This document shows positions 1 to 64,000 of a stretch of 64,000 nt of DNA, piece after piece. The stretch lies in assembly GCA_914767715.1 (NCBI GenBank), contig OU612071.1, forward strand, positions 16,798,948-16,862,947, read 5' to 3'. This DNA comes from Membranipora membranacea. Taxonomy: Eukaryota > Bryozoa > Gymnolaemata > Cheilostomatida > Membraniporidae. The notes beneath the pieces are model-generated. The model saw only the letters and a program-made list of their open reading frames with translations. It was not told the DNA's origin and searched no databases. Position numbers and translations under genes: made by a program. Positions within the stretch are counted from its first letter, which is position 1. Each line of letters starts with the position of its first letter.

Positions 1-74
1 CACAAACATTTAGTACACTATCATCAGAAATAAGGGACCAATACCTACCTACCAATAGAGATATAATATCTTAC

Positions 75-1488: not shown

Positions 1489-4400
1489 CTGGAATGAATC
1501 AATAAGAGCTCCAATCTAGGAAGAAGAAAGGTTTACAACAAGATTTTCAGTTAGATCAATTTTCGCTTCATTAATCTTCCACAAACACTTTGCGCCTACA
1601 GATCTAATTTCACTCACATGGTTTCAGAAAAACTGCTGGAACATCGGCACCATCTACAAGACAGTGAAGTTTGTCATTCTCGTCGCATTCCATCTCATCA
1701 GAGAGCATCCATCTTGGGTTGTGAACCATATGAGGTCTCAATTGCTGGGTGAGCAGGCAGCTTCCGCAGCAAAACATGACAGCAGGGTGAGTGCCTTTCC
1801 ACGTACTCTTCATGTAGGTAAGAAGGTTTTCTAAGCACATCCTCATCCTCCCCCATGATCGACAGAGGTCATGTACAGAGGTTGACACTTGAAGAGTGAC
1901 TCTTGCTTCATGGTAGTGGTGAATGAAATGTGTGGTTGATCCTCCATGGAAAATCTTTGCGCCATTCCTGGCCACTGTACATTTGTCATCAGGACTTCTT
2001 GATGAATCAAGTACTACTATGGAAAGCTCATGGTATATGTGATGCGGTAATGGCAGCATGCTCTCAAAACTTATCACAACTCTCAGCTGATATTCACCGT
2101 CAGATTTCCAACTCCTATCGTTGTATTCCGTGGTGAAGTATGGGACAACATAGCATTGCAAACCATCCTGGATCGGTACAATCGGGCCATGAATCAGCCT
2201 AAACTTCTGCAAGATTCCGAGGGCTATATCTATTGGGAATGTTGAGTCTTCACCAATAACATGATTGAGGAGATCTTCAGAGATCAACCCAGTTTGCTGG
2301 TAATGGAAGACATGATTCTCAAATTCTTTCTTTGTTGAAATCATCCTCACAAACGAATTTGGGACATATACATACTCTTGTATGCATTCTTCCCATTGCT
2401 TTGTGGCATCATGATTGAAGAGTAGAGCTATGAGACTCCTCAATGATATGAAATTATGGAAAATGGGAAACTGAGGGCAGTCTTCCAGCCATAATAATCT
2501 GCCACATTTGTGCATTAACCTTAGCACAATTTTCAGTGACGGTATATTTTGCTGATAAAGCGACTCAAGAGACTGAAGATCTAGGTACGAGGCTTCAAAT
2601 GACTCAATATCAGCAATCATGGCTAACCATAAAGGGGGCAGAAACTGGATGTGACCACAGGAGATCTCATCTATGCACTGAATAATGCCATTGAACTGAT
2701 CAAAGGCTGGATCATCTCCAACCACAAATATATTTGATTGTTGGAAAAGTTGTCTGTTTTCATCAGAGAAAACTCTAATCGCGGGTCCATGTTTCTCCTC
2801 TGCTGTGCGGTCTCTGATAGTAATCCAGGTTTGTCTACGTAGGAGCTCAACTGTGCGAATGAATACTTCCATCTGATAACTTACATCAGTTTCGGATAGC
2901 TTATCTTTGTGGGTTAGCACCAGCAGGGGTGGGCCCAAATCAGGGTTAGCTAGGTAAAAGTGAGCTATCCAGTCAAAGCACAGTTGCTTTACCGCTTCAC
3001 GGGGATCTTGTGTCGCTAATGTTTTGAACTCATGAAGGTTAACTACTATGACTGGAATGAAGTCCGCTTTCAGTGCGATTTGATATGTAGGGTGGTAAAC
3101 TCCATTTCCACCTAGATCTATGATGCGTATTTCCTTTACAGAGTCCATTTTAAGGTTCTTATGATTGAACACAGTTGTGGTTTCATCACTTGGGTCACCT
3201 TTTATCCGCTTTGTTAGGTATCGCTTTTCTTTCCTTAGAGACTCTATGACACTTGTTTTACCTGAGTATGACTTTCCGATCACACCTACGGTTAGGGATG
3301 GTAGCTTTTCAAACCATTCAGCTTCACTATCGAGAAAGAATAACTTAATCGCTTGTAATCCCTGCTCAGCGATAGCAGAGGGTGGACAATTCAAGTTCTC
3401 ACACCCATCGAGTTTTAGGTGAGTGAGAGCTTGAGGTCCGGGAACAGGCAACACCAGTCTTTTCAGATGCTTATTGTGGGCCAAGTTTATGCTGGATAAA
3501 CTATTTTGGGAACGCCATGACATGGTTGAAAACTCAGGGAAACGATTTCGGTCGAGCATCAGTTCCTTCAGGTTGACAAGCAGTGAGAGCCTGCAATCAG
3601 TGAATATTGAGTCCTATTTACCCATTTTAACCATTAACACCATTGTGATATTGTAAATTGTAAGTGAGCTTTGAAATTACTTTGCGTTCATTATAGTAAT
3701 GTTGAAACGGCACACAACCCATTCAATAGCTTTACTCATGCAATATTTGAGGGTACAGCAATATTAACAAGGAACATTTAAATATTGAAAAATGGAAATC
3801 CCCTATTCAGACTTAACAGGCTTCTCTCAACTGCAATCTTTGCGATCAGGGAATAACTAACTTACAGGCGAGGACCAAATATCAATTAACTTATTGATTT
3901 GACATATTCTCAGTGTATAGCTAAGATACATGGAAAATGCTGACTCCAAATTGTTCAGTGATTAAGTAGATTAGGTTTACAAGGTTTTGCTTGGGATGTC
4001 AGTACTATATTTTGAGATGAGGATCTTTGAAATAACTATGAATACATACTGTTGAGGCACTCTAGAAAGCTGATTCCTGCTCAAATCAATCGTCTCCAAG
4101 TTCTCTAGATAAGCTATCCTATAAAAGATAACAAATACAGTGTAAGCTGGTTAATTAGAATCCTGTTAATTCGAAAATATCTGTTAATTCAGACACCTGA
4201 CTGTGTGTGCGTGTGTGTATTTGTGTGCGTGTGTGTTAATGCTCAATGAACTACAGTGCACTCCTCTTAATTTAGACTTTATATTTCAGCACTCAGAATT
4301 CAAACAAAGATAATTGGTCCCTTCAGCCAAATGTCGATTCATTCTTATTTAATTTGATTCAAACTCTGCATAAATAGGACACAATTTGATGGTCCCTAGA

Positions 4401-7400: not shown

Positions 7401-10400
7401 TAACACTAAGAGCATGCAGTTGAAAGAGTTAATTGAATGGCAGCTGTGCCTCCGTACTGAATCTGAACAGCTTTCAAATAAAAGAAAATTAAAACCCCCC
7501 AGTAAATGAATTCGCATTTCGCATAAGTTCTGCTTGAGACTTACCGTGGTGAGATGATTTTCATATTGCAATTCATCAGCTTCAATGTCTGGAGCTGTGG
7601 CATTGCAGCAAATATATGACCTTGTCTACAACATATCAAATTACAATCAAGTAATAACAGTCAGTGAGTGTTTGCCTGATTAGAAATATAAATCTGTCAA
7701 AACAAAATTGTTTAAGAGTCAACATGGAGATATTTAGAACTTTCGAATTGATAGGCTTCAATTCATGTTCCCGTACACAGTCGGTCACTGCGAGTACTAA
7801 ACTACTGGGCTAGTCTTTGTCTATCCTTATCAGTGTTAGAGAGGGTTGATTGGCAACTGACGAATGAGCCACAAAATTCAGGAAGAAAAGAAACATATCG
7901 CTCAGGATAAAAAGTTTCAAAATACTACACCTAACTAAAATTTGTATCCTGCAACGCTAGAGCTATGCTTGATTAGCAGAATTGAGTGGTAAGACAGCAG
8001 GTTAATGTGGTGAATCTGCAGTGGCTTTGGCCATCAGAAACAAACTTGTAACCAAATTGATAAAAGAACCTAAGGCAGTCAGTGACAGCATGATGACGCT
8101 TAGTGTAACTACAGGAATGCACCCTGCAGTAGTGATAGGTATTGACCAAGTCATTACATTAAATATTGTGTTGATGAGCTATTGAGTGTAACAATTTTTC
8201 AAGGTAGATAATATTTCTTGGATGATAGAGGGGTCAAGTGTAACCAAAATAAACCCTCTTCACTAACAGTCCCAACTAAAGTATAAACTGATATGTATAC
8301 CAGTGCAAACACTGGTTTATAAACTAGTACTTATTCATGTGTATATAGCAGTGTATACTCCGCTGTCACATACCTAACCAAAGTCAGTGTTAGGTAGGAT
8401 TATACCAGTCTCCTCTAACATCATGCCTAATATGAATACCTATTTCATACTTACATCTCTGGGGATACTTGATTCTCACAGTGTGACAAGACGAACCACG
8501 TAATGCTGCTAAAATACCTCAGAATGGCAGCATCCAATCTGTAAGAAAGATCAAAAGTATTTCTCAGATAGATACAAGAAATTTTAATAACTTTGCTGAC
8601 AAGCAATGATAAACAATGGAGGAGGGCTGAGATATTGTGTCTCATGCCTGTCCAAGAAACACAGTAAGTCAATATTTTTTCAGCGCTGGAATGCCGGAAA
8701 CTTCTTTGTGAATTAATAAAAATGATCGAAATGGTTTGCAGCAGCCAATAAGATGATTGGTGATTTTGATTACTGAGCAGGTGGTTGACATTTTGTCACT
8801 AGCCCTTGAAAGGATATCACATATAGCTTGGTAACATTCTGCAGGAGCTCAGCTACCTCTACTGGCAATCTGTAAATGGTTGATTAAAATCGTTGATTAA
8901 AATCAGATGCCATATCACTTGCCACATCCCGAAGCATGGGCAGCGAAATTTAGTTGCTTTAAGGGCTAGGCCGCAATGTATGCGCCAGTTTGATCTCAGT
9001 TTGCAGGCGGGTCGGAGCACACCTGGGAGCCAACCAAAACTCCAGTAGTCGATGGACCGCAGTGGGATTAGAACCCACAACCTTCAACACGCGTGTTGAA
9101 GGACAGGCGCTCTCACCAGCTGAGCCACCTCCTGCTCCTAAGATGAGATATCTTCTCCGAGAAATACAAGAATTTCTAAAAGGTTTGGTGACAAGGAATG
9201 ATATACTATGAAAGAGGGTTGAGAAATTGTGTCTCGTCCCCGTCCAAATAACACAGTCGGTCAATATTTTTTCTGTGCTTAAATGGCGGAAGTTTGTTCG
9301 TTAATTAATAAAAAATGATTGGTATGGTCTGCAGCAGGCAATAAATTGATTGGATTGATTATTGAGCTAGAAGTTAAAACTTTGCCTCTTACCCTTGAAA
9401 GGATATCAAGTATAGCTGAGAAACATCCTCCATGTGTTCAGCTACCTCTACCGGCAATGTAAAACACACTTTCACATTGGTAATGGAGGCTGTGTCTAGC
9501 TTATCTATGACATCTTTGAGTGTGTGCTTCTCCACATCATTCTTGATCCATGAAATATCTTGTGCGGAATCTCCTTCCTCCTTGAAGCTAACCCACATCG
9601 CTGATTGGTCAAATTCTGATCAGAGTAAAAAGTGAACCTAAAATGCTCGTGCTCAAAGTATTGTTTTATTATCTATGAGTTAATTTGATAATTTTGGTAT
9701 TTATTCAAATGTTGAAGACCAACTGGGAGTATGTAGGATGTATAAATTGAACATTGAAAGTTTATTCCGGACTTTTATATACTAGGAACTAATCGTTAAT
9801 GAGAGCTTGTGTAAAGGAGTTTGGATTTGGACACAGAATGGCTAAAATTTAATTTGTGGATATTTTCATTCCTTAGGGTTTTCTCAGCGTAAAGCCACCA
9901 AAATAAACCAGGCCAAGTGAATCAGGGTTTCCAATGAATCCATCGCATCGACCCTTCTATAACTTAATGAAGTTGTTTTGGATGAACCGAGTTGAAAAAG
10001 GTTCATGACTGCAAGGTTAGGCCAACATGTCATATTATTCAAAACACACTAAGTTATATAAATGTGTTACCTTGAATAAGGGATTCGGGCCATTGCTGAG
10101 TTTGAGCCTCCGATGGCAGGCTAGGCCACCACAGCCCAATGCGAGCCGCAACGATCAATCTGCGGAGTGAAGCTACATCAATACCATCCTCAGTGTAATA
10201 TACATGGTCGAAGAACCGTTCAATTGTCCTACACGGATGTGTCGTGAACAAGACCTGAAAAAAAGAGTTTCCCTTTAAATTGAAACAACTTGACTGATGA
10301 ATTAATTTTGTCCCCATTAACTGAAACTATCATAAATTATGGTGGACCCATTACCCATTCCTCCCCTCTCAGTACCGTATGATCTGAATTTCATGTCAAT

Positions 10401-22720: not shown

Positions 22721-23115
22721 CTACCTCGGCTCATCAGTGTTACGGGATTGTGAATGTTTATTTAGCAGGCCCCCTACTTTGTTTGTCTGCTTGAGATTCA
22801 CCTTTAATGTCTGATTCACCCAAAATTGTGGTGAGCACAGGAAGGTTGTCAACAAGGTCAAGCGGTGTTTGTGGTTCTGTCTGCTCATGGAAAGGCAATC
22901 AGCATTGGTGTTAGTTTCCCCATTTTTGTGTTTGATGTCATAGTTGTACGGCTGAAGCAATAGTGACCAGCGACCTAGTCTGCCCTTAGTGTCATTTATG
23001 CTTTTCAACCACTTGAGGCTAATGTGGTCAGTGAGCACCAAAAAGTGTTTATCTGCAAGGTAATGTTTGTATTTCTCTACTGCTGTAACCAGGGCTAGTC
23101 CCTCCTTATGTGTTA
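22721..23115 (-). mobile_element. Ty3/gypsy retrotransposon fragment: RNase H and pol spacer
   Basis: The minus-strand frame reads H-K-E-G-L-A-L-V-T-A-V-E-K-Y, then V-L-T-D-H-I-S-L-K-W-L, then G-R-L-G-R-W and the diagnostic N-A-D-C-L-S. These are the RNase H domain and its downstream A-D-x-L-S motif of Ty3/gypsy elements. The frame stops upstream at about 23105 and there is no adjacent reverse transcriptase or integrase, so it is a truncated relic. LTRs were not found. Confidence 0.85.
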
Positions 23116-26038: not shown

Positions 26039-26039
26039 A

Positions 26040-26278
26040 TCAAATGTCTTGTCACATGCCACATACTGAAACATGGGCGCCAAAATTCATTGCCCTAGTA
26101 GCGAGGCTGCAACATCTGTGCCAGGTTGCTCTCTGTTTGCAGGCAGGTTGGAGCACAGCACTGGGGGCCAACCGAACCCCAGTAGTCGATGGACCGCAGT
26201 GGGATTCGAGCCCTCAACCTTCAGCATCTGCATGCTAAAGGTGTGGTGCTCTAACCAACTGAGCCACCTCCTACTCAA
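26040..26278 (-). mobile_element. tRNA-derived SINE, intergenic copy
   Basis: On the minus strand it has the A box TGGCTCAGTTGG...TAGAGC, the B box GGCTCGAATCCC and the same body (CTGCGGTCCATCGACTAC...) and tail (TTTTAATCAAC) as the copies in genes A and B. The anticodon-arm position again holds an elongated stem. It is diverged from the gene copies by roughly a fifth, by eye. A body fragment without a head recurs near 26735-26780. Confidence 0.85.
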
Positions 26279-43200: not shown

Positions 43201-44942
43201 TAAGCCCTAGCTGTAAGCCCTAGCTGTAAGCCCTAGCTGTAAGCCCTAGCTGTAAGCCCTAGCTGTAAGCCCTAGCTGTAAGCCCTAGCTGTAAGCCCTA
43301 GCTGTAAGCCCTAGCGTACGGCTGTTTAGGTTTAGGTTGAAGAGTAAATTTCATCAAATGTCCCGCTAACAAAATGTCATTCACTTTCATTATCGTTATT
43401 ATGTTATATATTTCAGTTGATCTACAACGAATGCCTTTATATGTGCCACCAATCAAAAGGGACGACACAAAATTAGAATCAGAGCTATCGCAGCCGTTCT
43501 CTAGTAGAAGGAGGAAGAAAAAGACTTCAGTTGGAAAACTGATGATAAGAGAGAAAACTTTCTCTGCTAACAAATCTAAATCTAGTCTCAAAGTAAGTCG
43601 GGGCAGTGAACTTATCTTCTCTTTTGTTAGGGAGAGTCTGCTAGGTGCCTCATTTAATTAGGATTGGCCCCAAATCTACACCTGATAGTGCCCGGTCGGT
43701 GAAGAGAATATCCTTGTAGCTTGCTGTCTATTACTGAAATCATTCACAGTTTATATTTCTATACACTAGGTCGTATTTGACGCCTTATTTAACGGGCCCC
43801 CTTAAGCGCATGTGACTTGTGTTGGGTGGTACACTATACCCTTGCTCACTGTTGTTAGCTACTCGTTCTGAAAGAGGCAACGGGGGGATCTTTTTTCTAC
43901 ATTCAAGCACACAGTAGGCCTCCTGTATTTGGGGTACTGATCTGAATAGAGCTGGCTAGGATGAACGGCTTGCCAATGCGGAAACAGAAATCAGGAGTCA
44001 TGGGGGTTGCCTGCTCTTTCTCATTCATCACACAAGTAAAAAATAGTCGTTAGTTAGGCTAACATAAAAAAAGTTTTGATCATCAGCAGTCATCAGTTAT
44101 GTGGAATGGGTATCCGATTGTCCAACTTCAAATGACTTTCTTCTGTTACAGAGAGTTGCTCAACAAAACGGAACATCAGCCCCTGACAAACCCAACAGTG
44201 CTGGTAGGTGTAACTTATCATATAGTTACATTCTCATTTTGTTCACAAGGATTGAGTTGGTGGTACAAATTTCACAATTCAATTCTATATTCTCAGTTAT
44301 ATAAGTTGACACTTACATCCACTTGCATGGATAGACTTGCCAATGTAAGAAGGTCAAAACCTGTGGCGTATTCACAGATGTTATTCTCTCAATACAACAT
44401 TTATCTTATTTTTTGAATAATCACTCATGTTTTCATCAACCTAATCAAGAGAAGAGCTGCATTTGACAATGTGGCTGGTTCTTTTTCAATGTTAGTTCAA
44501 TTCTGTGTTAAATGTTGTGTGGTATTGATGTCTTTTAATCTCAAAAGAAGCTAACATTTTACTCTTTCTTTCAGGTTCCGATTCTCCTTCAACTGGAAGT
44601 AAAGAACATTCCGACACCCAATCAGCCCAAGTACATCCTCCAATATCTCCAGTACCGCCCCCGCTCACACATAGCCGACTAAGGACTGATGTGAGTCTGC
44701 ACAGGGGAGATAATACCCAATCTCCCATGAGCCACCGATCTATAAATAGTAACACTGACAACCACCATAGATTTAATTCATCCAGTGCAGCCAGCTATAA
44801 ACACTCCGGTTTATCTAGTCATAAAGGCTCTCACAAAGGCTCTGTTACTAGTTTAGAGCAGGATCAGCTGACTAGAACACTGACTAGTTTGAATATAGCC
44901 ACCTTCGAGCCTATGCTTCCTCCTACATTGGATAAGAGATAG
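31265..44942 (+). CDS. armadillo-repeat and fibronectin type III protein, 13 exons, 5' end not found
   Basis: Exons 31265-31466, 32216-32432, 33571-33678, 34059-34242, 34926-35049, 36323-36467, 40246-40392, 41260-41350, 42044-42149, 42609-42678, 43417-43592, 44152-44203 and 44575-44942 join with matching phases and GT-AG borders, ending at TAG 44940-44942. The first five encode armadillo repeats (N-A-A-Y-I-L-G-T-L-A, N-A-A-G-T-I-G-T-L, N-A-A-L-V-L-A-R-L, N-A-C-F-A-I-S-C-L). Exons 6-7 form one FN3 domain (V-H-V-S-W and Y-N-V-Q-V) and exons 8-10 a second (I-N-V-S-W and Y-T-F-V-V). The tail is basic, then Ser/Pro/His-rich and probably disordered. No signal peptide is seen, so it is likely a cytosolic scaffold. 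The third exon holds an in-frame TGA. I do not recognise the orthologue. Confidence 0.75.
31478..31705 (+). repeat. dispersed element with Cys-containing coding-like segment, copy 1
   Basis: About 230 bases align with 40750-40985, both in introns of the ARM-FN3 gene and in the same orientation. Both keep a frame ending W-(I/V) ... R-Y-T-C-x-S-x-S-x-D-Q-C-x-C and an acceptor-like CTNTAG/CATTAG at the same place. Copy 1 is open over 88 codons. This could be decayed exons of an extracellular domain or part of a mobile element. Confidence 0.5.
33571..33678 (+). CDS. armadillo exon with in-frame TGA (exon 3 of the ARM-FN3 gene)
   Basis: The exon has a clear acceptor (ATGTAACAG) and donor (CTTG|GTATGT). 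It translates as G-M-N-A-A-F-A-I-G, then TGA (33603-33605), then L-C-D-I-T-K-G-R, which is typical armadillo sequence on both sides of the stop. It is 108 bases, entered and left in phase 1, so skipping it keeps the frame. CGA (Arg) to TGA by CpG decay is the simplest origin. TGA followed by CTT also resembles leaky stop contexts. Confidence 0.65.
35477..35642 (+). mobile_element. MITE with TCTTTCAATT terminal inverted repeats
   Basis: It runs from GGTCTTTCAATTAGAC to CAATTGAAAGACC inside an ARM-FN3 intron. The interior matches the inverted copy at 30241-30399 (CCCAAATCGCTCACTCAG, GAGTGAG). Confidence 0.75.
36693..37230. repeat. intronic tandem duplication, two units
   Basis: A unit with G-run, GTCCCTGTGGCCCCTACA, AGTCTAGCTCATTGT, GTCAGAGTTGTAGATCTTCT and GATTAGTTATAATTCTTGCA is present at about 36710-36893 and again at about 36890-37226. 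The second unit has about 130 extra bases in its middle. It lies in the intron before the exon at 40246. Confidence 0.8.
37505..37580. repeat. 76-bp near-perfect palindrome
   Basis: The left arm ACAGCCAGCCCTTAAAAGCC continues TTCGGGATGGCGATCG. The right arm is its reverse complement except for one base (a G opposite T, which would pair as G-U in RNA). The loop is four bases (CGGC). It is GC-rich in an AT-rich intron. It could be an inverted-repeat transposon end pair, a recombination palindrome or an RNA hairpin. Confidence 0.9.
37829..38036 (-). CDS. small membrane-protein exon nested antisense in ARM-FN3 intron (copy C)
   Basis: An ATG-initiated exon of 69 codons ends in a GTAAGT donor in phase 1. 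It starts M-E-P-K-S-A-T-I-R-A-C-G-K-D-C and has two hydrophobic stretches long enough to span a membrane (T-V-L-L-L-L-S-T-L-L-L and V-I-L-I-V-V-L-S-F-L). Its start is duplicated at 38868. No downstream exon was found. The family is unknown. Confidence 0.5.
38344..38835 (-). CDS. small membrane-protein exons A and B, nested antisense
   Basis: Exon A (38835-38755) encodes a hydrophobic segment like a signal peptide (L-A-L-L-I-G-L-L-T-C, then A-A-P-A-P-S-D-T) and ends in phase 0 at GTAAGT. Exon B (38429-38344) is entered in phase 0 and encodes R-D-L-E-D-I-L-T-L-F followed by an Ile-rich membrane segment, with a GTAGGT donor. Exon A lacks its start codon in place because the matching start segment lies inverted at 38861-38915. 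This is probably a disrupted paralogue of the exon at 37829-38036. Confidence 0.45.
38787..39080. pseudogene. rearranged segment: inverted start exon and orphan Cys-containing exon
   Basis: ACGTAGTGAAGCATGTCAGT (38787 on) is inverted at 38836-38860. Directly after it the plus strand reads ATG (38868) M-E-P-K-I-V-T-I-R-A-C-G-K-D-C then TAG, which is the start of the antisense gene flipped onto the other strand. Further right, the minus strand (39075-38915) reads a protein-like exon (V-Y-E-D-E-N-N-P-V-I-Y, then C-V-R-C-H-D-D) interrupted by TGA at 39050-39052 and ending in TAG. Confidence 0.5.
40750..40985 (+). repeat. dispersed element with Cys-containing coding-like segment, copy 2
   Basis: This is the partner of 31478-31705. 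Starting after CATTAG (about 40802) there is an open frame through T-S-S-V-T-A-P-N-L, A-T-W-V-I-S-C and R-Y-T-C-H-S-T-S-Y-D-Q-C-G-C-P, ending at TAA. The residue pattern shared with copy 1, despite many base changes, suggests it once coded for protein. Confidence 0.5.
42282..42360. repeat. imperfect hairpin in ARM-FN3 intron
   Basis: CTGAAAGGACCTATTGA and ATAGTGAAAGTAA are mirrored by TTACTTTCAC and TCAATAGGTACTTTCAG around a short loop. It resembles a very small inverted-repeat element. Confidence 0.65.
42893..43314. repeat. 13-bp minisatellite, about 32 units
   Basis: The unit CCCTAGCTGTAAG is repeated almost without error; three units read GTACG instead of GTAAG. It lies in the intron between the exons ending 42678 and starting 43417. 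Each unit contains a donor-like TGTAAG and an acceptor-like CCCTAG. Confidence 0.97.
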
Positions 44943-51810: not shown

Positions 51811-51816
51811 TTTATT
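51811..51816 (-). terminator. polyadenylation signal of ROCO-caspase gene B
   Basis: AATAAA on the minus strand lies about 90 bases beyond the TGA of gene B, a usual distance for a compact 3' untranslated region. Confidence 0.55.
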
Positions 51817-51901: not shown

Positions 51902-54651
51902 TCAGTGAAAGTTAGGGAAGAGATAGACAGTCCTGTCTCCTGTAAATGTACAGCTGATATCTGGTATCTGTCCCTTTGGTTTAGTTTTATCAACACACTT
52001 TTCTATACTCTTCAGTTCAACCTGAGCTCTAACCTGGAAAAAAGTGAGATAGTTCTTAGTACAGGTGAACGGTTACTAATATGGTTACTAGCTTTGATAG
52101 AACATTCGTTGGTTTGACTGACTGAGGTCACACAAAATTGGCAAAATATTGATATTGATATAGACACAAACATAAGAGTGAGCCAAATAGTAGGTTTTTG
52201 ACTGACTGAGGTCTTGTTTTACGCCAGGTATGATTATAGTTGATCAACTTCTTTACTTTCAATAACTAATATTAGTGAGAGGTGGGACTCTGGAACCAGA
52301 TGAACTTCCTTTGGTGATGCTCAACAGAACAACTACTATTACAGTAAAGTAAAATAAGCCCAAACCAAGCTGGACAAACATCATCAAATTAACAATTATT
52401 GTTACCATCTTTGGTCAGGTGAGCCTTTCAGATAACTTACATATTCAGCCAGTTGCCTCAGGTCAGCACAATGCCCGTATCTACTGAACATAATCACTAT
52501 AGCTCTGATGAGCCAGGATCCATTTCTGTGATGTCTCATCGATCCAAATTCTAAGAATATTAAGAGAATTTATAAAATACAACATTTAAATACTAATGAA
52601 GACAGACTTGTTACCTTATCTGTATACTTTACTTGCGAAGGTGAAAAATGTTTTAATCTGGCTTGTTTTGTTGAAGGAAGCCAACAAATTATGGTTGTTC
52701 TAATGATTTCTTCTAAACATATTTACAATCTATAATTGTTGGAATATATCAGGGTACAATATAATACAATAGCAGACAACAACTTGCAACTGATATCAAT
52801 AACAATTTTACTTCAATTTACTCCTCACCTGGTAGACTTGACTTCAGCACAAGAAAATGTGACCGGCTCAGAGACACGTTTTGATCCTCAGTTGCATCAT
52901 AGTTTGGCAAATTGCCAGCATCCCTGAACTCATTATCAGAGGTGCTCAGCTTTATTGGCTTCTTTGGAATTGCATGTTTCATTCTTGCCTCACCTCCGGC
53001 AGCGGAAATGTTATCCATTAGTCCTAAGAGATAATAAACCAAGTGAAAGAAAGACCTAGCATATAGGCTGTTGATACCTTAGACTTAATAATAAACCTAG
53101 AGAGGACGCTGTATGGAGCATTAGCATTCAGGCACGTTGTGGGCGACGTAAAGACAATTTTTGGCGACGTAACGATTTTTGAAAGAGTAGAAGCGATGAT
53201 GATATCATTGATTTACTGTTCAAAATCCAGGTTTTGTGTCGATAGCTTGATCAATTTTGATAGGATTTTGGGTTTGAAAATCACAATTTATTGCAACATA
53301 TTTTTCAGAAATTTCAAATTCAAAATCCGATCAAAATTGATCGACTTACGAACAAAAATCCCAGACTATGGACAGTAACACAATGATAGCATCGATGCTT
53401 AAACAACTTCCAATGACGTTACTTCGCCCCACAATTAAGTACCTCGCTTCAGCTGTGTGTAGTGTCCTGTCTAGGTTAATTATTAAGTCTATGGTTTATA
53501 GCCGCTTCACAGAAACAATAATTTATCTGACTCATCCTCACCCATCTTGAAATCTTTTCAGTTATATAACTTCGAGTCTATGCCATACAACATATAACCA
53601 ATACTGTTACACATACACACATGTGACGGTGAATATGAATCCTGTCAATTCAGATTTCTTCCTAATTCAGAAAGTTGCAAGACTGACTCTAACTAGTAGA
53701 AACACAGCTTGTATATATCATCAAAACTGTCGATGACTTACATGAGTAGTTATAGAATATGGTGAAAGTCAGAGAAAATCTGCAAAATGCATATCAATTG
53801 CTGTAAATGCGACTCACTCAGCTTTTTCAGACACAAACCTTTAGTACACTATCATCAGAAATAAGGGTCCAATACCTACCTACCAATAGAGATATAATAT
53901 CTTACCGCCAGAACATGACTGTACAATCACCAGTTTCGGCTTATGAGCCATTGCAGGAAACTTTGTACCACCAAGAAGACCATAAATATCATGGAGGCGA
54001 ACACTCCAATCGTCATTACCATGAATGAGACCGTCAGTACCATGTGACATGATGGCCAACACAAACATACCATAAATGTTGTGCTCTGGTCTCTTAGTCT
54101 CAGCTATGATGGTATCACAGATGTCCTAAAGCATACAAATCTTGATTATAGTAAAAGAATGCTGCTACCAATACTTCAACAAATTTAAATTTTAAATAAG
54201 AAATATAGTAATATTATGTTAAATCCTCAACATTCATGTAATCAACAAATTACATATAATTTACACATATTTATTAGGTCAACCTTGCTAATCTGAAGCA
54301 ATCAATTCATCATTATTATTGATTGGTAGAAATAAAGTGTGACAGTCATAAGTTTCAAACCATATTACGGATTATAAAATCTAAGGTTTCACAGCCTGTT
54401 CATAAATGTTTCAAGAAAAGACCTCTTCTACTGATATTTATTTTTCCCTCACATCTATGTTTAGGGTTACTTAGATATCTTCTTACCTTGGCAGTATAAT
54501 CTTTATGTTCGCCAACCACATCAAAGTGATATCTCTCAAACATTATTTTGAGATTACTGAAGTCTTGCTCAGAGCCAGGACGTGGAGAGCTAGAATAAGC
54601 GTTTGAGATTATGAGTACTCTTCCTCTGATTCCTTCACTCATCAGGTATAT
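51902..54651 (-). CDS. complete caspase domain of gene B (p20, linker, p10)
   Basis: Exon 13 (54651-54487) has R-G-R-V-L-I-I-S-N and R-P-G-S-E-Q-D. Exon 14 (54125-53906) has the catalytic His in M-S-H-G-T-D-G and the catalytic Cys in V-Q-S-C-S-G. Exon 15 (53023-52829) is a polar intersubunit linker with candidate cleavage Asp residues (F-R-D-A, N-Y-D-A, T-E-D-Q) and opens the small subunit at S-H-F-L-V-L. Exon 16 (52550-52441) has S-M-R and N-G-S-W-L-I, matching the SxR...GSWFI substrate pocket. Exon 17 (52033-51902) has G-Q-I-P-D and the final strand. All residues needed for an active Asp-specific protease are present. Confidence 0.9.
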
Positions 54652-57600
54652 CTGTGTGAATTAGGAAAATAATTTATGTAAATTTGAAACAAAGGGCTTC
54701 CATTACCTATAGAAAACACGATGTCCATTACAGTGAATACGGATAGTTCACATTCAACTCCTATCCGAAATGTGGAATACTAGGAACGCCAATTTATTTG
54801 CATGCTATGCTAGATTTGATAATGACTCTGTTGGAATAAATATGTTTTGGATAACACCTTGTCGTCATTAGGAAACAGGTGCTTGATATAATCAGGCGTT
54901 GCGTGAGGAACGAGATCGATGTTATCCAAAGCTGTGTCATCCAATAGAATATCGGGAGTGTGGAATGGATCCGAATCAGGGTGAACTTGGTTAGACTGCT
55001 GTAACCCCACATCTGTTGGGACTGCGACGAATCCTCCACCTACAGAAATTTATGACATGCATAAATTTCTTAGGAGAAAGCAAATATTAAGCTTCTATAA
55101 ATGGCGTATCTTTGGTTGGACCAAGATGTCAGTCGAATGCAAAAAATTTAGGTATCTTATTGATGAAATTCACAGCCAATAGCTTTGTGTCTGAACAATG
55201 GAATAATCTACGAGACAACAAACTGGTATAAAAGATACTACCTGCTGTTTCTCCACTCAACAGAGGCAAATGAGTTTCTCGGTAGCATCTCAACTCAACA
55301 ATTCTCTCAGGGGATAAGTTCTTGCCTGGAATGAATCAATAAGAGCTCCAATCAAGGAAGAAGAAAGGTTTACAACAAGATTTTCAGTTAGATCAATATT
55401 CGCTTCATTAATCGTCCACAAACACTTTGCGCCTACAGATCTAATTTCACTCACATGGTTTCAGAAAAACTGCTGGAACATCGGCACCTTCTGCAAGACA
55501 GTGAATTTCGTCATTCTCGTCGCATTCCATCTCATCAGAGAGCATCCATCTTGGGTTGTGAACCATATGAGGTCTCAATTGCTGGGTGAGCAGGCAGCTT
55601 CCGCAGCAAAACATGACAGCAGGATGAGTGCCTTTCCACGTACTCTTCATGTAGGTAAGAAGGTTTTCTAAGCACATCCTCATCCTCCCCCATGATCGAC
55701 AGAGGTCATGTACAGAGGTTGACACTTGAAGAGTGACTCTTGCTTCATGGTAGTGGTGAATGAAATGTGTGGTTGATCCTCCATGGAAAATCTTTGCGCC
55801 ATTCCTGGCCACTGTACATTTGTCAGCAGGACTTCTTGATGAATCAAGTACTACTATGGAAAGCTCATGGTATATGTGATGTGGTAATGGCAGCATGCTC
55901 TCAAAACTTATCACAACTCTCAGCTGAAATTCACCGTCAGATTTCCAACTCCTATCGTTGTATTCCGTGGTGAAGTATGGGACAACATAGCATTGCAAAC
56001 CATCCTGGATCGGCGCAATCGGGCCATGAATCAGCCTAAACTTTTGCAAGATTCCGAGGGATATATCTAATGGGAATCTTGAGTCTTCACCAATAACATG
56101 ATTGAGGAGCTCTTCAGAGATCAACCCAGTTTGCTGGTAATGCAGTACATGTCTCTCAAATTCTATCTTTGTTGAAATCATCCTCACAAACGAATTTGGG
56201 ACATATACATACTCTTGTATGCGTTCTTCCCATTGCTTTGTGGCATCATGATTGAAGAGTACAGCTATGAGACTCCTCAATGATTTGAAATCATGGAAAA
56301 TGGGAAACTGAGGGCAATCTTCCAGCCATAATAATCTGCCACATTTGTGCAGTAACCTTAGCACAATTTTCAGTGACGGTATATTTTGCTGATAAAGCGA
56401 CTCAAGAGACTGAATATCTAGGTTAGAGGTCTCAAATGACTCAATATCAGCAATCATGGCTAACCATAAAGGGGGCAGAAACTGGATGTGACCACAGGAG
56501 ATCTCATCTATGCACTGAATAATGCCATTGAACTGATCAAAGGCAGGATCATTTCCAACCACAAATATATTTGATCGTTGGAAAAGTTGTCTGTTTTCAT
56601 CAGAGAAAACTCTAATCGCGGGTCCATGTTTCTCCTCTGCTGTGCGGTCTCTGATAGTAATCCAGGTTTGTCTACGTAGGAGCTCAACTGTGTGAATGAA
56701 TACTTTCATCTGATCACTTACATCAGTTTCGCATAGCATGTCTTTGTGGGTTAGCACCAGCAGGGGTGGGCCCAAATCAGGGTTGGCTAGGTAAAAGTGA
56801 GCTATCCAGTCGAAGCACAGTTGCTTTACTGCTTCACGGGGATCTTGTATCGCTTTTGTTTTGAACTCATAAAGGTTAACTACTATGACTGGAATGAAGT
56901 CCGCTTTCAGTGCGATTTGATATGTGGGGTGGTAAACTCCATTTCCACCTAGATCTATGATGCGTATTTCCTTTACAGAGTCCATTTTAAGGTTCTTATG
57001 ATTGAACACAGTTGTGGTTTCATCACTTGGGTCACCTTTTTTCCGCTTTGTTAGGTATCGCTTTTCTTTCCTTAGAGACTCTATGACACTTGTTTTACCT
57101 GAGTATGACTTTCCGATCACACCTACGGTTAGGGATGGTAGCTTTTCAAACCATTCAGCTTCACTATCGAGAAAGAATAACTTAATCGCTTGTAATCCCT
57201 GCTCAGCGATAGCAGAGGGTGGACAATTCAAGTTCTCACACCCATCGAGGTTTAGGTGAGTGAGAGCTTGATGTCCGGGAACAGGCAACACCAGTCTTTT
57301 CAGATGCTTATTGTGTGCCAAGTTTATGCTGGATAAACTATTTTGGGAAAGCCATGACATGGTTGAAAACACAGTAAAACGATTTCGGTCGAGCATCAGT
57401 TCCTTCAGGTTGACAAGCAGTGAGAGCCTGCAATCAGTGAATAATGAGTCCTATTTACCCATTTTAACCATTGTGATAATTGTAATAATTGTAATTGTAA
57501 TAATTGTGATTGTAATTGTAAATGTAATAATTGTAATAATATTGTAAATTGTAAGTGAGCTTTGAAATTACTTTGCGTTCATTATAGTTATGTTGAAACG

Positions 57601-60600
57601 GCACACAACCCATTCAATAGCTTTACTCTTGCAATATTTGACAGTACAGCAATATTAATAAGGAACATTTAAATATTGAAAAATGGAACTCCCTTATTCA
57701 GGCTTAACAGGCTTCTCTCAACTAAAATCTTTGCGACCAGGGAATAACTAACTTGCAGGCGAGGACCAAATATCAATTAACTTATTGATTTCTGACATAT
57801 TCTCAGTGTATAGCTAAAATACATGGAAAATGCTGACTCCAAATTGTTCAGTGATTAAGCAGATTAGGTTTACAAGGTTTTGCTTTGGATGTCAGTACTA
57901 TTTTTTGAGATGAGGAATCTTTGATATAACTATGAATACATACTCTTGAGGCACTCTAGAAAGCTGATTCCTGCTCAAATCAATCGTCTCCAAGTTCTCT
58001 AGATTAGTTATCCTATAAAAGATAGCAAATACAGTGTAAGCTGGTTAATTAGAGTCCTGTTAATTCGAAAATATCTGTTAATTCAGACACCTGACTGTGT
58101 ATGTGTGTTCGTGTGCGTGTGTGTTAATGCTCAATGAATTACAGTGCACTCTTCTTAATTCAGACTTTATAGTTCAGCACTCAGAATTCAAACAAAGATA
58201 ATTGGTTCATTCAGCCAAATGTCGATTCATTCTTAATTAATTTGATTCAAACTCTGCTTAATTAGGACACAATTTGATGGTCCCTAGAGATTTGAATTGA
58301 GTGGAGTGTACTGTACATAATTATATTTGCAGAATAATTATATCTGCATAAGAAAAATTATATACCATGAAAAAAAAATTATATTTACAGAATAAGAAGA
58401 AGGTCAAAGAATGAAGGATGTGGAAGACAAGTTTTAAAGAGAACCTTCTTATGCACCAACCTGTCTGTGAGTATTTGCAGCTTGTTACCTGCCATTATGA
58501 GCGTTCTCAACTGTTTAAGGTCACCAATACTACAACAGCAAGATGTGACAAAATTCACAAAAAAAGCAACGATAGACAATAGAGAAACATGAGTCAGCTG
58601 TTAGTGAAAAATATTTTTATTCTTTACCTTTTCTGATTCATACTAGTTACTGCAATGCTTCGGTGTAACTATTTCTATCATTCAATACATGACAAAAGCT
58701 CTATTTATTACTGTGTATTGTGTTGGTCATGGATTGTTTGTTCTCGATTTAACAGATATTTAGCATATGCATCGACAAATCACACAACACTAGACAGCAC
58801 ACAATATCACATCAAAATTATGCAGCAAAATCAAGTGATAGAAAACTCAATTGATATTTTGAACATGATGTAACTCGCAGGTAAAAGTCTAACATTTGGA
58901 GAAAACAATGTAGGTCAACAGTTAGCTGCTGTTATTTTTCATTCTTTGAATAATGCATTACTGTTCAATAAAATGTACATTTTGGGACAAAATGGTTTTT
59001 TTCCGGTTGAGACTTTATTGATCTTGCCTTGTACATTGGTACAAGGCTTTTCTATTTTGAATTCACTGTGGTCCAGTGAAGTGAGGGTTGAGCTTCTATT
59101 ACATTAGGGAGAGTCAAACTTGGGAATTTGGTTTGAAATAATGCTATACCGTGGTGCTTTGCATAATGCTTGCAAGCTTCATTGAGTGAGCAGTGAACTG
59201 ATCTGACAATCAATTCATTGTTGTGTGCATCCTACAAGAAGGTTACATCAGGACTTCATCCTCCATACCACGGAGCAATAATGGGCAAACAGAATGGCCG
59301 CTGGAAAGAAAATGAAAAGTTTTACCGCCTCCCTCCCCATTCAGTGATATATCGCCTTTTTCCGTTTCTCAGGAACTACTTGTCCCATCTCAAAATATCC
59401 TTCACTGACACGTTGCCAGTAGTCTGACTTATGTTTAATATCGCAATTTTTTTCAAATCGCATGTTCCTAACTTGATTAATTGTACATTAACTAAAATAC
59501 ATTGAAAACATATAGGCAGCCATGGGCAAAATGATGCAGTAAATTACATTATGCAAAAGCGTGATGAAAATCTAAGCAGTATTACATGCAAATCACATTG
59601 TGTACAACAATGGATCACCTTTGTTAGGTTATTGTTTAGCATGGAAAGAGAAATGTTTATGCTAATAACTTCTTTACTACTGAATTTATCATCAAATGCC
59701 AAGATCAAAACCTCGGAAATATTCTCTAGTTTAATGGAAGCTAGTGTGTATCATATGTTAATTGTTTAACCTATTTTCAGTTTTTGGCTGGTAAAAAGTG
59801 CATGTTTTGGACCAAATAAAGCTGGTTTAGCCACAAAAATCCAAATATCTCAAGATGTAAAGCCATAATCAACAATCGCTTCGATCAAAACCTAGACAAT
59901 CCCCTGTTATTCATCATGCTGACAACAAATTTGACTGACGTCTTTCTGAATTTCTGATTTTTGGCTGGAAAATTTTGACCTAAATAAGTTAAAATTTGGG
60001 TTATTTTCTGATACAGTTGTGAAAACAAGGATCTGTAAACTGTCAAGATTATTGATTGAAGTGACAGTACAAGACCAAAATGGTATAATGAATTGGAAAT
60101 TCTTGTTTTTGCATTATTGGGGTTGCATGTAATGAGGGGTCAGAAATGGCCCTAACATCATTGCAAAAATCAAATTCAAGTCTCCAAGACAAGAGGCCTA
60201 AAATCATAAAGTTTCACCCAAATGTCACTCCTCCAGTTAGTGTCATGCCTCCTCTATATGGTGAAAGCATAAACTAATCAAATGCCTCAAAAACAAGGCA
60301 CAGAGGGCACAATTTAAAAAGGGCACTTTTTGTCCCAAAATGAACTTCCAGAGGACACTGCAACTCAACGTCAAACCTTTGAGAGGTTTAAACTGTGAAA
60401 ATAACTATTAGACAGATCACCAATACAATATTAAAAAGTTTTAAAAAGCGATGATATATCACGTTAATTTATAATTTTTCACAAAAACTTGATTATAACA
60501 TCCTAACTAGATTGAAAAACATTCATATGTTTTGTAGAACGGTGTTGTGACTGCAGATTCGCTATGACAAGTATGACCAGCTTCAAACAGACAGACCAGT

Positions 60601-63600
60601 CTACTAAAAAAGGAGTGTATACTAGCTCAAACAGAATCCAAAGCTCGGTAAAACCATTCTAAGAATTTTTTGACAATAACACCTTGCCTATTACATCTTT
60701 TTTCTCCCTATCCCTCTCTGGATCGCAGTTTTTTCCATTTCTAGCAGTCATGACCGTGATAGTCAGCCATTTATTTTTTTTCTTTATTGATGTTTGATGC
60801 CTTACAAACTCTTTATAATTTGTTGTAATTGAACCGAAATAAAATGTCTTGAAGGAAACAAACCATTTAGTTGTAAATTAAGTTGAAGGAGGAAAAAAAA
60901 TATTTTACTCATTAATTAAACTCCAATAATACACAAATGATAGATCAACTATAGGGCCTGATGTAACTAGAGTGCATAACATACCCCAAACAATAACTCA
61001 TATCAACATGGGATGCTCAGTAACTTAGTATACAGGCATGCTCCAACCAATCTTTGGCCTGAATCCTAGACTATATAATTATCTCCCCAGCCTCAGTCAT
61101 ACCATAATGCTCAATTCTTCGTAAATAAAGTATTTAGAATCCACAGGCAAATTAGTATGTAAACTCACCATTCAGGCACACTGAGTAGCTCATTGTTGGA
61201 CAGATCCAAGAACTCCAACTGCTTCACATAACTCAGTCTTTAAACAGAACATAATACAAATCAAATCAGCGGGTGTGAGATTGCAATGGTAAAATAGAGG
61301 TATGGTGAAATAAAGGCCAAAATCTATCAGAAAATCAAAAATTTTGGCTTTTATTTCACCATGAGGCTTAAATGTGAGAGCAACTGTCGCAATCGCACTA
61401 CCCCTGAATTGATAGCATTCAGAAGAGAGGTAATGGAATCTAGTTGTTTCCCAAACGTTCAGAAATTGGAGGCTGCCATCTTGCTATGCTATGGTATAAC
61501 AGGGTATCACAAATGTGTGATACATTACTTTCTCCATAACTGTGACCATTGATGCATTAAGATTATAATTATACATACAGATGGCTTGATGAAAATGTCA
61601 CATACAGGAACTGATACTAAAGAAGAACAATTGCACACAGCTGGTCACAACTGCTTACTGTTCTGAGTATACTGGATTCTGTTGACCATGAAATGATTAT
61701 GACAACATGGTAGAAAAAGCTTGATAGTGGTATTATGCACTTGCCAAATGGACCCTCTAAATCATTGCCTAAGCTATTTAGAGGGCAGTGAAAGCTGCTC
61801 GAAAAGTTGCCTCTGCCTTTAATAATCTTTTAAGGGTTAAAGTGACAAGAGATTCAACTCCAGATATGTATGATTAACACTGAGAGCATGCAGTTGAAAG
61901 AGTTAATTGAATGGCAGTTGTGCCTCCGTACTGAATCTGAACAACTTTCAAATAAAAGAAAATTAAAACCCCCCAGTAAATGAATTCGCATTTCGCATAA
62001 GTTCTGCTTGAGACTTACCGTGGAGAGATGATTTTCATATTGCAATTCATCAGCTTCAATGTCTGGAGCTGTGGCATTGCAGCAAATATATGACCTTGTC
62101 TACAACATATCCAATTACAATCAAGTAATAACAGTCAGTGAGTGTTTGCCTGATTAGAAATATAAATGTGAAACAAGATTGTTTAAGAGTCAACATGGAG
62201 ATATTTAGAACTTTCGAATTGATAGGCTTCAATTCATGTTCCCATACACAGTCGGTCACTGCGAGTCCCAAACTACTGGGCTAGTCTTTGTCTATCCTTA
62301 TCAGTGTTAGAGAGGGTTGATTGGCAACTGACGAATGAGCCAAAAAATTCAGGAAGAAAAGAAACATATCGCTCTGGATAAAAAGTTTCAAAATACTACA
62401 CCTAACTAAAATTTGTATCCTGCAACGCTAGAGCTATGCTTGTTAAGCAGAATTGAGTGGTAAGACAGCAGGTTAATGTGGTGAATCTGCAGTGGCTTTG
62501 GCCATCAGGAACGAACTTGTAACCAAATTGATAAAAGAACCTAAGGCAGTCAGTGACAGCATGATGACGCTTAGTGTAACTACAGGAATGCACCCTGCAG
62601 TAGTGATAGGTATTGACAAAGTTATTACATTAAATATTGTGTTGATGAGCTATTGAGTGTAACAATTTTTCAAGGTAGATAATATTTATTGGATGATCGT
62701 GGGGTCAAGTGTAACCAAAATAAACCCTCTTCACTAACAGTCCCAACTAGAGTATACGCTGATATGTATACCAGTGCAAACACTGGTTTATAAACTAGTA
62801 CTTATTCATGTGTATATAGCAGTGTATACTCCGCTGTCACATACCTAACCCAAGTCAGTGTTACTGTTACACCTAGGTAGGATTATACCAGTCTCCTCTA
62901 ACATCATGCCTAATATGAATACCTATTTCATACTTACATCTCTGGGGATACTTGATTCTCACAGTGTGACAAGACGAACCACGTAATGCTGCTAAAATAC
63001 CTCAGAATGGCAGCATCCAATCTGTAAGAAAGATCAAAAGTATTTTTCACATAGATACAAGAAATTTTATTAACTTTGCTGACAAGCAATGATAAACAAT
63101 GGAGGAGGGCTGAGATATTGTGTCTCATGCCTGTCCAAGAAACACAGTAAGTCAGCGCTGGAATGCCGGAAATTTCTTTGTGAATTAATAAAAATGATCG
63201 AAATGGTTTGCAGCAGCCAATAAGATGATTGGTGATTTTGATTACTGAGCTGGTGGTTGAAATTTTGTCACTAGCCCTTGAAAGAATATCACATATATCT
63301 TGGTAACATTCTGCAGGAGCTCAGCTACCTCTACTGGCAATCTGTAAATGGTTGATAAAAATCGTCGATTAAAATCAGATGCCATATCACTTGCCACATC
63401 CCGAAGCATGGGCAGCGAAATTTAGTTGCTTTAAGGGCTAGGCCGCAATATCTGCGCCAGTTTGGTCTCAGTTTGCAGGCGGGTCGGAGCACAACTGGGA
63501 GCCAACCAAAACTCCAGTAGTCGATGGACCGCAGTGGGATTAGAACCCACGACCTTCAACACTTGCGTGTTGAAGGACAGGCGCTCTAACCAGCTGAGCC

Positions 63601-64000
63601 ACCTCCTACTCCTAAGATGAGATATTTTCTCCGAGAAAAACAAGAATTTCTAAAAGGTTTGGTGACAAGGAATGATATACTTTGAAAGAGGGTTGAGATA
63701 TTGTGGCTCGTCCCCGTCCGAATAACACAGTCTGTCAATATTTTTTCTGTGCTTAAATGGCGGAAGTTTGTTAGTTAATTAATAAAAAATGATTGGTATG
63801 GTCTGCAGCAGGCAATAAATTGATTGGATTGATTATTGAGCTAGAAGTTAAAACTTTGCCTCTTACCCTTGAAAGGATATCAAGTATAGCTGGGAAACAT
63901 CCTCCATGTGTTCAGCTACCTCTACCGGCAATGTAAAACACACTTTCATATTGGTAATGGAGGCTGTGTCTAGCTTATCTATGACATCTTTGAGTGTGTG
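51902..64000 (-). CDS. ROCO-caspase gene B: LRRs, Roc, COR and complete caspase (5' end outside window)
   Basis: Exons, 5' to 3': part of exon 3 (64000-63867), 63341-63276, 63021-62938, 62099-62019, 61237-61169, 58529-58461, 58012-57944, 57427-55455, 55325-55242, 55039-54858, 54651-54487, 54125-53906, 53023-52829, 52550-52441 and 52033-51902. All are in phase, GT-AG except the GC donor of exon 4. Exon sizes equal those of gene A, except exon 12, which is 9 bases shorter. There is no frameshift or stop, so B looks functional. It provides the only view of the C-terminus, which ends Y-L-F-P-N-F-H, as caspases typically end in a short strand after the small subunit. It is convergent with the ARM-FN3 gene. 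Confidence 0.88.
54858..55325 (-). CDS. exons 11-12 of gene B: linker between COR and caspase
   Basis: Exons 55325-55242 and 55039-54858 encode about 88 polar residues rich in Asp (for example D-I-L-L-D-D-T). Exon 12 is three codons shorter than in gene A. Its low conservation suggests a flexible tether, and several Asp residues could be self-cleavage sites that release the protease. Confidence 0.8.
55455..57427 (-). CDS. Roc-COR exon of gene B
   Basis: It is the same 1973-base length as gene A's exon with no indel. I count roughly 38 amino-acid differences over 649 aligned residues. The P-loop GKSYSGKT, the D-L-G-G motif, T-H-K-D and the late Cys cluster (C-C-G-S-C) are all unchanged, so selection appears to keep the GTPase. 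Differences cluster in the COR part and after the T-H-K-D loop. Confidence 0.92.
57468..57546. repeat. AATTGT/AAT microsatellite expanded in copy 2
   Basis: Runs of TGTAATAATTG and TGTAATTG occupy the intron just upstream of the Roc-COR exon. The matching site in gene A (about 3633-3660) has only a short ATTGTGATATTG remnant. Confidence 0.85.
57944..63341 (-). CDS. exons 4-9 of gene B: LRR exon array
   Basis: Exons at 63341-63276, 63021-62938, 62099-62019, 61237-61169, 58529-58461 and 58012-57944 repeat the phase-2 single-LRR pattern of gene A with identical lengths. Changes fall at putative exposed positions (for example I-A-Y-L to I-T-N-L in the last repeat). Confidence 0.85.
59198..59790. 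other. segment present only in copy 2 of the duplication
   Basis: Copy 2 diverges after GAGTGAGCAGTGAAC and rejoins copy 1 at AAGTGCATGTTTTGGACC. Copy 1 has three GAGCAGT repeats at the junction. The segment contains a 69-codon plus-strand frame of unknown nature and no terminal repeats that I can see. It is either an insertion in B or a deletion in A at short repeats. Confidence 0.75.
63350..63612 (-). mobile_element. SINE in gene B (orthologous position to 8878-9139)
   Basis: The same SINE lies at the same place between exon 3 and exon 4, with the A box GGCTCAGCTGG...TAGAGC and B box GGTTCTAATCCC. It was therefore inserted before the segmental duplication. Confidence 0.88.

Follow-up and report, generated by a model that had tools for sequence, protein, structure and literature searches.

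Introduction

The Roco proteins include the Parkinson's protein LRRK2, and there is debate over how the GTPases of this family activate their output domain. The LRRKs end in a kinase and WD40, and we know of no prokaryotic LRR-Roco that carries a caspase. LRRK1, LRRK2 and the prokaryotic LRR-Rocos (PDB 3dpu and 6hlu) have a core of leucine-rich repeats (LRRs), Roc and COR in common. Here we analyse a 64,000-nucleotide stretch of the genome of the bryozoan Membranipora membranacea (the window; GenBank assembly GCA_914767715.1, contig OU612071.1), whose minus strand carries a gene predicted to encode this same core followed by a complete caspase. The contig with the window is called C7 (the window being C7:16798948-16862947), and C1, C3, C5, C9 and C10 are other chromosomes of the same genome.

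Initiator caspases are activated by induced proximity. With the Apaf-1/caspase-9 apoptosome and the NLR inflammasomes the protein would share a nucleotide-switched assembly that activates an initiator caspase, but it has a Roc GTPase and not a NACHT or NB-ARC ATPase, and no CARD or DED was found in its chain. It resembles MFHAS1 in having LRRs and then Roc-COR, which passages of PMC4104024 give as the simplest arrangement, and its closest named relatives, P0006 and P0007, are called MFHAS1-like; MFHAS1 has no C-terminal effector, whereas in the window gene the exons of a complete caspase follow the COR in phase. Invertebrate Rocos in which Roc-COR is combined with a cell-death or immune module are described in parts of two papers, placozoan ones with CARD or death domains (PMC4104024) and Aplysia ones joined to TIR and MyD88-like proteins (PMC9334734); theirs are adaptor domains, while the window protein has the protease. 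Amphioxus has LRRs-caspase and TNFR-caspase hybrids, for which a link between recognition and apoptosis was proposed in passages of PMC2575513; as here, a recognition module sits directly on a caspase, and the words Roc and COR are absent from the main text of that paper.

Passages on bacterial caspase conflict systems (PMC8195603, PMC7159879) and on placozoan immunity (PMC6321704) contain no Roc-COR-caspase fusion. An earlier note on this DNA, made from its letters, held that no animal Roc-COR-caspase had been described. In the open-access literature, covered by titles, abstract openings and some passages (subscription journals and preprints were outside this scope), we found no such description either, but the claim has to be narrowed, as both domains occur in the database model P0007 and the amphioxus LRRs-caspase hybrids are published. 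The parts are of known kinds; their combination and its scale are new to us.

Results

An Exon Chain From LRRs to Caspase

The gene under study, hereafter copy 2, was built from stop-to-stop frames and splice-site scores. Its chain consists of 14 exons (Table 1), all 13 junctions are GT-AG and phase-compatible, and the spliced product has 1188 residues with no internal stop, its N-terminus lying beyond the window. A 667-codon open frame (57450-55447, stop included) holds the end of the LRRs, the GTPase and the COR-like region, and the LRRs of the chain match LRR_8 of Pfam with 51 bits. The in-phase chain from LRRs through Roc (with P-loop and THKD) and COR into a full caspase, which the earlier note had proposed, was thus borne out, and the limits it gave, 51902..57427, match to the base the end of the stop codon in the last caspase exon and the start of the Roc-COR exon, respectively; its exon numbers 10-17 could not be reproduced. 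Chance is excluded as an explanation, because the chain recurs in tandem copies, in distant paralogs and, as far as the beginning of the caspase, in a protein model from a second species. In the window there was no Rfam match at gathering cut-offs and no ARAGORN call, and NCBIfam gave nothing beyond LRR and small-GTPase matches far below its cut-offs. As judged from sequence, this is one gene for one predicted protein of about 1,540 residues (copy 1 N-terminus plus copy 2 chain, the start of copy 2 not being established). We regard it as practically certain that this is a single chain, predicted to run from a fast-evolving N-terminal part through LRRs, Roc GTPase, COR and linker to a complete caspase.

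A second copy (copy 1) occupies 1-11892 of the window. It has the same exons, its DNA is 93-96% identical to that of copy 2 over long stretches, and its exons F-H are present just outside the window (locus L009). Five Roc-COR copies form an array on C7, at 16.80, 16.85, 16.90, 16.95 and 17.03 Mb; in copies 1-4 (the two of the window, c3 and c4) the caspase exons follow in the order D to H, and the fifth is listed from its Roc-COR exon. The identity of copies 1 and 2 would also be expected if the assembly had placed two haplotypes in a row and the duplication were not real. This is very improbable given five copies in one orientation, 46-76 kb apart, and divergent paralog clusters on other chromosomes, and the fusion would stand even if the two copies were alleles.

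Two further observations concern the array. The first coding exon (window 11101-11892; L010 2476-1646; L013 7995-7156) has a protein identity to copy 1 of 75-76%, the value for exon A being ~94%. Intron C-D (window 54857-54652 vs 1012-818) is 28% divergent between the copies, as against 2-8% for nine other compared introns, possibly through gene conversion or replacement.

The Caspase Half

Once spliced, the caspase exons (54651-51902) matched PF00656 (Peptidase_C14) at 4.2e-34 over profile positions 1-229 of 233, a complete p20 and p10 fold region, while single exons, unspliced, reached 7e-11 at best in Pfam; the difference therefore supports the splice model. The closest solved structures by sequence in PDB were CED-3 (5e-17) and caspase-9 (1e-16). 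The catalytic His (SHG), the catalytic Cys (QSCSG) and both pocket Arg residues (PRPGSEQD; SMRxxxxGSW) aligned with those of caspase-9 and CED-3, so that the residues that characterise C14 peptidases are all in place.

We also searched the first 399 residues of copy 1 and the 1188-residue chain against Pfam, where no CARD, DED or death domain was found at E<=1 and no NACHT or NB-ARC was among the matches. By Pfam the chain thus has neither the prodomain of an initiator caspase nor the ATPase of NLRs and Apaf-1. That no death-fold domain to recruit a separate caspase was found in it agrees with a built-in effector.

The Roc-COR Half

Because the single-sequence evidence for Roc-COR was thin (exon A alone matched PDB 3dpu at E=0.066), we used a profile of 12 Roc-COR exons from the same genome, three from C7 and nine from C1. 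Searched against PDB, it matched 6hlu and 3dpu at 3e-12, 4wnr at 4.5e-11 and LRRK1 at 5e-5. The first two are deposited as 'Rab family protein' and 4wnr as 'Leucine-rich-repeat protein'; we take them to be the Roco of Chlorobium tepidum and, presumably, an archaeal Roco. It is the LRR-Roc part that carries these matches; the COR stretch appears as an insignificant second piece in 6hlu only. Pfam placed Roc in 12 of the 12 members at E<=0.01 (the window member at 17.5 of 27 bits, below the curated cut-off) and COR-A in seven at E<=0.01, with 1.5e-4 as the best value. Using hhalign, the profile aligned with P0001, a Roco that matches COR-A and COR-B in full, at a probability of 97.6% over 293 columns, from the LRRs into the first part of COR-A; COR-B was seen weakly only, in the relative P0004 (E=0.002).

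The columns of the P-loop GxxxxGK[TS], of D-GG and of TH-x-D show little or no variation among the 12 aligned exons. The exon therefore carries the Roc GTPase motifs of a Roco (P-loop, DxGG, G4), and a COR domain directly after Roc is recognised by remote homology only. A structure prediction of exon A from a 3-sequence alignment had a pLDDT of 30.8, and the model was not used.

The Junction Between COR and Caspase

The same exons could be divided between two neighbours, one an MFHAS1-like LRR-Roc-COR gene with exon A as its last exon, the other a caspase gene whose start codon would be the Met of YLMSEG (exon D). Apart from this Met at the start of exon D, an in-frame TGA lies a few bases past the COR donor, where intron retention would end the protein. 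Four observations weigh against a single gene: a poly(A)-like hexamer (AATAAA/ATTAAA) at 54798, in the intron before exon D; the weak constraint on the linker exons, with a ratio of non-synonymous to synonymous rates (dN/dS, omega) of 0.85; the predicted protein P0006 of the bryozoan Watersipora subatra, which ends in the linker and in which Pfam shows no caspase; and the exon C donor AAG/GTGTTA, the weakest splice site in the copy 2 chain, which is the same in copy 1.

The COR-end donor, however, lies at the same codon in 21 of the 21 loci with a COR (four C7 copies and 17 C1 loci; 22 were scanned, L022 being without COR), a pattern that splicing of every member into the caspase predicts and that a gene ending at COR would not. 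The last two codons of COR encode Pro and Cys, and the GT donor falls within the second of them, reading TGTGAGT in 19 loci, TGTTAGT in L034 and TGTAAGT in L035. On the other side of the junction, exon D begins with, or close to, [VI]Y.[MV]S in these loci, and a start at its Met would remove the preceding [VI]Y residues that the paralogs have in common. Within 15 kb of the scored Roc-COR exons, all caspase matches share the exon's strand and follow it, most of them at a distance of 0.8-2.4 kb, and one predicted protein of W. subatra (P0007) spans the junction. Two neighbouring genes are thus hardly credible, and the single gene of the earlier note is strongly supported by the sequence comparisons.

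The Family Across the Genome

Searching the genome (339 Mb, 18 contigs) revealed a very large caspase complement, with 145 PF00656 exon matches and clusters on C1, C3, C5, C9 and C10. We kept the 132 matches that cover the His-Cys region (p20 hits) and dropped 13. Upstream DNA was included for a sample from C1, the first 20 of 130 caspase loci. There, 17 of the 20 have a Roc-COR exon ~23-28% identical to that of the window with caspase exons after it, and L016 and L017 are other caspases without Roc-COR. Among eight loci covered with 1.5 kb of flank each, a COR end precedes the caspase in three (L003, L004 and L006).

The genome search with exon A yielded 66 scored Roc-COR exons from 237 candidates, a number that is a lower bound; stops occurred within two of them. 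Of these exons, 43 are followed by a same-strand p20 match within 15 kb, at 0.8-2.4 kb in 42 cases and at 9.9 kb in one; over the same distance none of the 66 has a p20 match preceding it on its own strand or anywhere on the other strand. Counted from the caspase side, a same-strand Roc-COR exon precedes 59 of the 132 p20 hits by less than 5 kb (42 from the exon A search, 16 from the C1 loci and one short-flank locus); the other 73 were largely not examined for Roc-COR and are not counted as negatives. Together with the two window copies, the Roco-caspase family has at least 61 genes. On these comparisons the window gene is a member of a large, tandemly expanded family and no isolated oddity.

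Some of these loci deserve separate mention. In L016 683-1303 and L017 647-1279 (minus), ~100 residues without a recognised domain precede the caspase and C14 is the sole Pfam match; an ankyrin partner, guessed from the sequence, was unsupported by Pfam. The Roc-COR exon of the C1 paralog L028 (5688-7711) is split into two overlapping frames just past the P-loop, possibly a pseudogene or an assembly error. The C5 caspase cluster (4.1-7.6 Mb) has no partner among the 66 scored Roc-COR exons and may represent another architecture.

Relatives in Other Species

Of two other protein searches, one returned one Roco (P0001) and the second nothing, and the 12-exon profile returned eight proteins. Two of the eight are the predicted W. 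subatra proteins P0006 and P0007, both named MFHAS1-like. P0007, an MFHAS1 homolog by name, is a single database model in which LRR, Roc and COR-A are followed by the first part of Peptidase_C14, and it aligns with the window protein in one collinear stretch from the LRRs into the caspase start, with 29% identity over 788 residues. The literature covered here yielded no publication about it. Among the others, P0002 aligns with 97% of exon A at 40% identity, and P0004 and P0005 show NACHT in Pfam below cut-off only, at the P-loop.

In a tree, one 19-row clade (support 100/100) united the C7 exons, the C1 exons, the Watersipora proteins and P0002-P0005, with P0001, P0008 and P0009 outside it; several rows were long and the inner branches less sure. 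As the fusion is found in three subclades of this clade, the comparison suggests that it is probably old within it.

Selection

Among the C1 paralogs omega was 0.20-0.55 for Roc-COR and 0.09-0.33 for p20 (six hand-picked pairs per half, of 21 possible; one pair per set has dS >1 and is saturated, and one p20 pair uses L022), values which indicate that both halves are under purifying selection there. Among the C7 copies it was 0.32-0.52 for the caspase and 0.50-0.93 for Roc-COR (six of six pairs each) and 0.66-1.09 for the first exon (three of three pairs), and the N-terminal part seems to drift or diversify.

The window copies may, alternatively, be decaying duplicates: the array would be recent and its selection relaxed, and with the changed active site (QSCSD) these copies would have little or no protease activity though the family is active. 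The Roc-COR values of the C7 copies in all six pairs are what this would predict, and the active site points the same way. QACAG was present in all 17 C1 Roco-caspase loci read, and the motif of the window copies is QSCSG/QSCSD and not QAC, which counts against a working protease in the window; in copies 1-3 the residue preceding the catalytic Cys is Ser where QAC has Ala, copies 1 and 3 also have Asp where the motif otherwise has Gly, and QACSG and QACAG are present in copy 4 and C1 paralogs. On the other hand, no stop or frameshift separates copies 1 and 2 in 1046 codons, where neutrality predicts 3.6 stops (P(0)=0.02). Their exons differ by one indel (9 bp, in frame) in 3139 bp, while 31 indels, 18 of them non-multiples of 3, occur in 7024 bp of introns, and the omega of the C7 caspase likewise argues against decay. 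We consider decay unlikely.

Features of the Window

The coordinates of both copies are listed in Table 1.

Table 1. Exons and motifs of the two gene copies, in window coordinates (a slash in a donor marks the exon end).
Feature	Position	Strand	Remarks
Copy 2 exon e3 (part), precedes LRR exons	63867..64000	-	continues beyond window (locus L010)
Copy 2 LRR exon, 84 bp, phase 2	62938..63021	-	same exon in copy 1
Copy 2 LRR exon, 81 bp, phase 2	62019..62099	-	
Copy 2 LRR exon, 69 bp, phase 2	61169..61237	-	
Copy 2 LRR exon, 69 bp, phase 2	58461..58529	-	
Copy 2 LRR exon, 69 bp, phase 2	57944..58012	-	
Copy 2 exon A: last LRRs, Roc GTPase, COR	55455..57427	-	donor CCAT/GTGAGT
Copy 2 P-loop GKSYSGKT	57091..57114	-	translation, motif scan, alignment
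Copy 2 switch motif DLGG (C1 paralogs: DFGG)	56944..56955	-	translation, motif scan, alignment
Copy 2 G4-like motif THKD (TH-x-D invariant, 12 aligned exons)	56740..56751	-	translation, alignment
Copy 2 exon B: linker	55242..55325	-	
Copy 2 exon C: linker; 9-bp in-frame indel vs copy 1	54858..55039	-	weak donor AAG/GTGTTA
Copy 2 exon D: caspase start (IYLMSEGIRGRVLIISN), first pocket Arg	54487..54651	-	
Copy 2 exon E: rest of p20; His codon 54044-54042, Cys codon 53915-53913 (QSCSG)	53906..54125	-	
Copy 2 exon F: interdomain linker with several Asp, p10 start	52829..53023	-	
Copy 2 exon G: p10 with SMRHHRNGSW (second pocket Arg)	52441..52550	-	
Copy 2 exon H: last exon with stop codon	51902..52033	-	AATAAA at 51816 after stop
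Copy 1 first coding exon: ATG, 264 aa	11101..11892	-	no Pfam match above cut-off
Copy 1 exon e2	10071..10254	-	
Copy 1 exon e3	9393..9615	-	
Copy 1 five LRR exons	8538-8455, 7625-7545, 6758-6690, 4654-4586, 4118-4050	-	
Copy 1 exon A (Roc-COR)	1618..3590	-	
Copy 1 exon B	1488-1405	-	
Copy 1 exon C	1203-1013	-	
Copy 1 exon D	817-653	-	
Copy 1 exon E	294-75	-	

Several repeats and one retroelement domain are also present. At 42893-43315, 32 copies of the 13-mer CCCTAGCTGTAAG, 98% alike, form a tandem array, and a 435-bp tandem repeat (2.9 copies) spans 17408-18632. The RNase H domain of a retrotransposon-type reverse transcriptase was found at 22721-23149 (PF17917, 2e-18). A dispersed repeat lies at 63350-63611, in an intron of the copy 2 gene, and at 26017-26276 (80% alike); part of it reads as tRNA-derived by eye, and ARAGORN called no tRNA there.

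Discussion

We think it fairly likely that the window gene encodes a single-chain, GTP-gated initiator caspase and belongs to what is probably an expanded family of immune or cell-death receptors. The N-terminal part and the LRRs would bind a stress or microbial signal, and the Roc GTP cycle would switch the Roc-COR unit between assembly states. Two caspase domains would in this way be brought together and activated by proximity-induced dimerisation, and the dimerised caspases would cut targets after Asp, for cell death or inflammation. The protein would then be an initiator caspase with its own sensor and platform in one chain. Activation by GTP-gated proximity is moderately likely, and passages of PMC4104024 propose the Roc-COR unit as a nucleotide-dependent dimerisation device. 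A role in immunity or cell death appears quite likely: the copies are many, clustered and N-terminally variable, and they look like an immune repertoire.

Several observations weigh against this reading. Pfam scored the Roc of the copy 2 chain at 16.2 bits, the gathering cut-off being 27, and did not detect COR in the single copy 2 sequence, and DLGGN in the C7 copies corresponds to DFGGQ in the C1 exons. The Watersipora protein P0007 stops after ~50 caspase residues (profile 1-49), before the catalytic residues, and therefore supports the junction and not the full protease. The C1 locus L022 has a family caspase and no Roc-COR in the stretch covered. As many as 23 of the 66 Roc-COR exons have no p20 match in the table, but these include both window copies, which do carry one; the pairing count is an undercount, because the C14 search missed the p20 exons of both, and the 21 further unpaired exons are unread and may be with or without a caspase. 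Between copies 1 and 2 dN/dS is 0.67 and the 68.5 non-synonymous differences are within the neutral range of 64-80. The fast rate of the first exon rests on three pairs, with starts in copies 2 and 3 that are not established.

It is also conceivable, though rather unlikely, that the fusion is real and the GTPase half is no activation platform. The caspase would then be activated by an outside initiator or cut off, and Roc-COR would serve, for example, in MFHAS1-like signalling, with the caspase cleaving, releasing or destroying that half. The Asp residues in the exon C linker and between the subunits (exon F) would suit such cleavage, and a chain in which no death-fold domain was found agrees with it as well. 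What speaks for a platform is that the paralogs retain the nucleotide motifs of Roc along with the catalytic residues of the caspase and that both halves are constrained in the C1 cluster.

If the protein is indeed a GTP-gated initiator caspase, Roco proteins would be a second nucleotide-switched platform of caspase activation in animals, beside the STAND ATPases. The finding suggests that animal caspases may be activated through a platform other than Apaf-1 and the NLRs, and that the recurring association of Rocos with cell-death modules (DAPK1, placozoan CARD-Rocos) may be functional. A Roco with a caspase as its output would also offer a simple read-out of the Roco switch. Quite possibly, although we hold this view tentatively, a lophotrochozoan lineage, probably the bryozoans, has assembled a large repertoire of single-chain Roco-caspase receptors that has expanded in tandem and is diversifying; in each receptor, sensor, GTP switch and executioner would together do the work of NLR inflammasomes and the apoptosome. 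In this little-studied animal lineage, with at least 61 Roco-caspase genes, sensing and killing may share one molecule.

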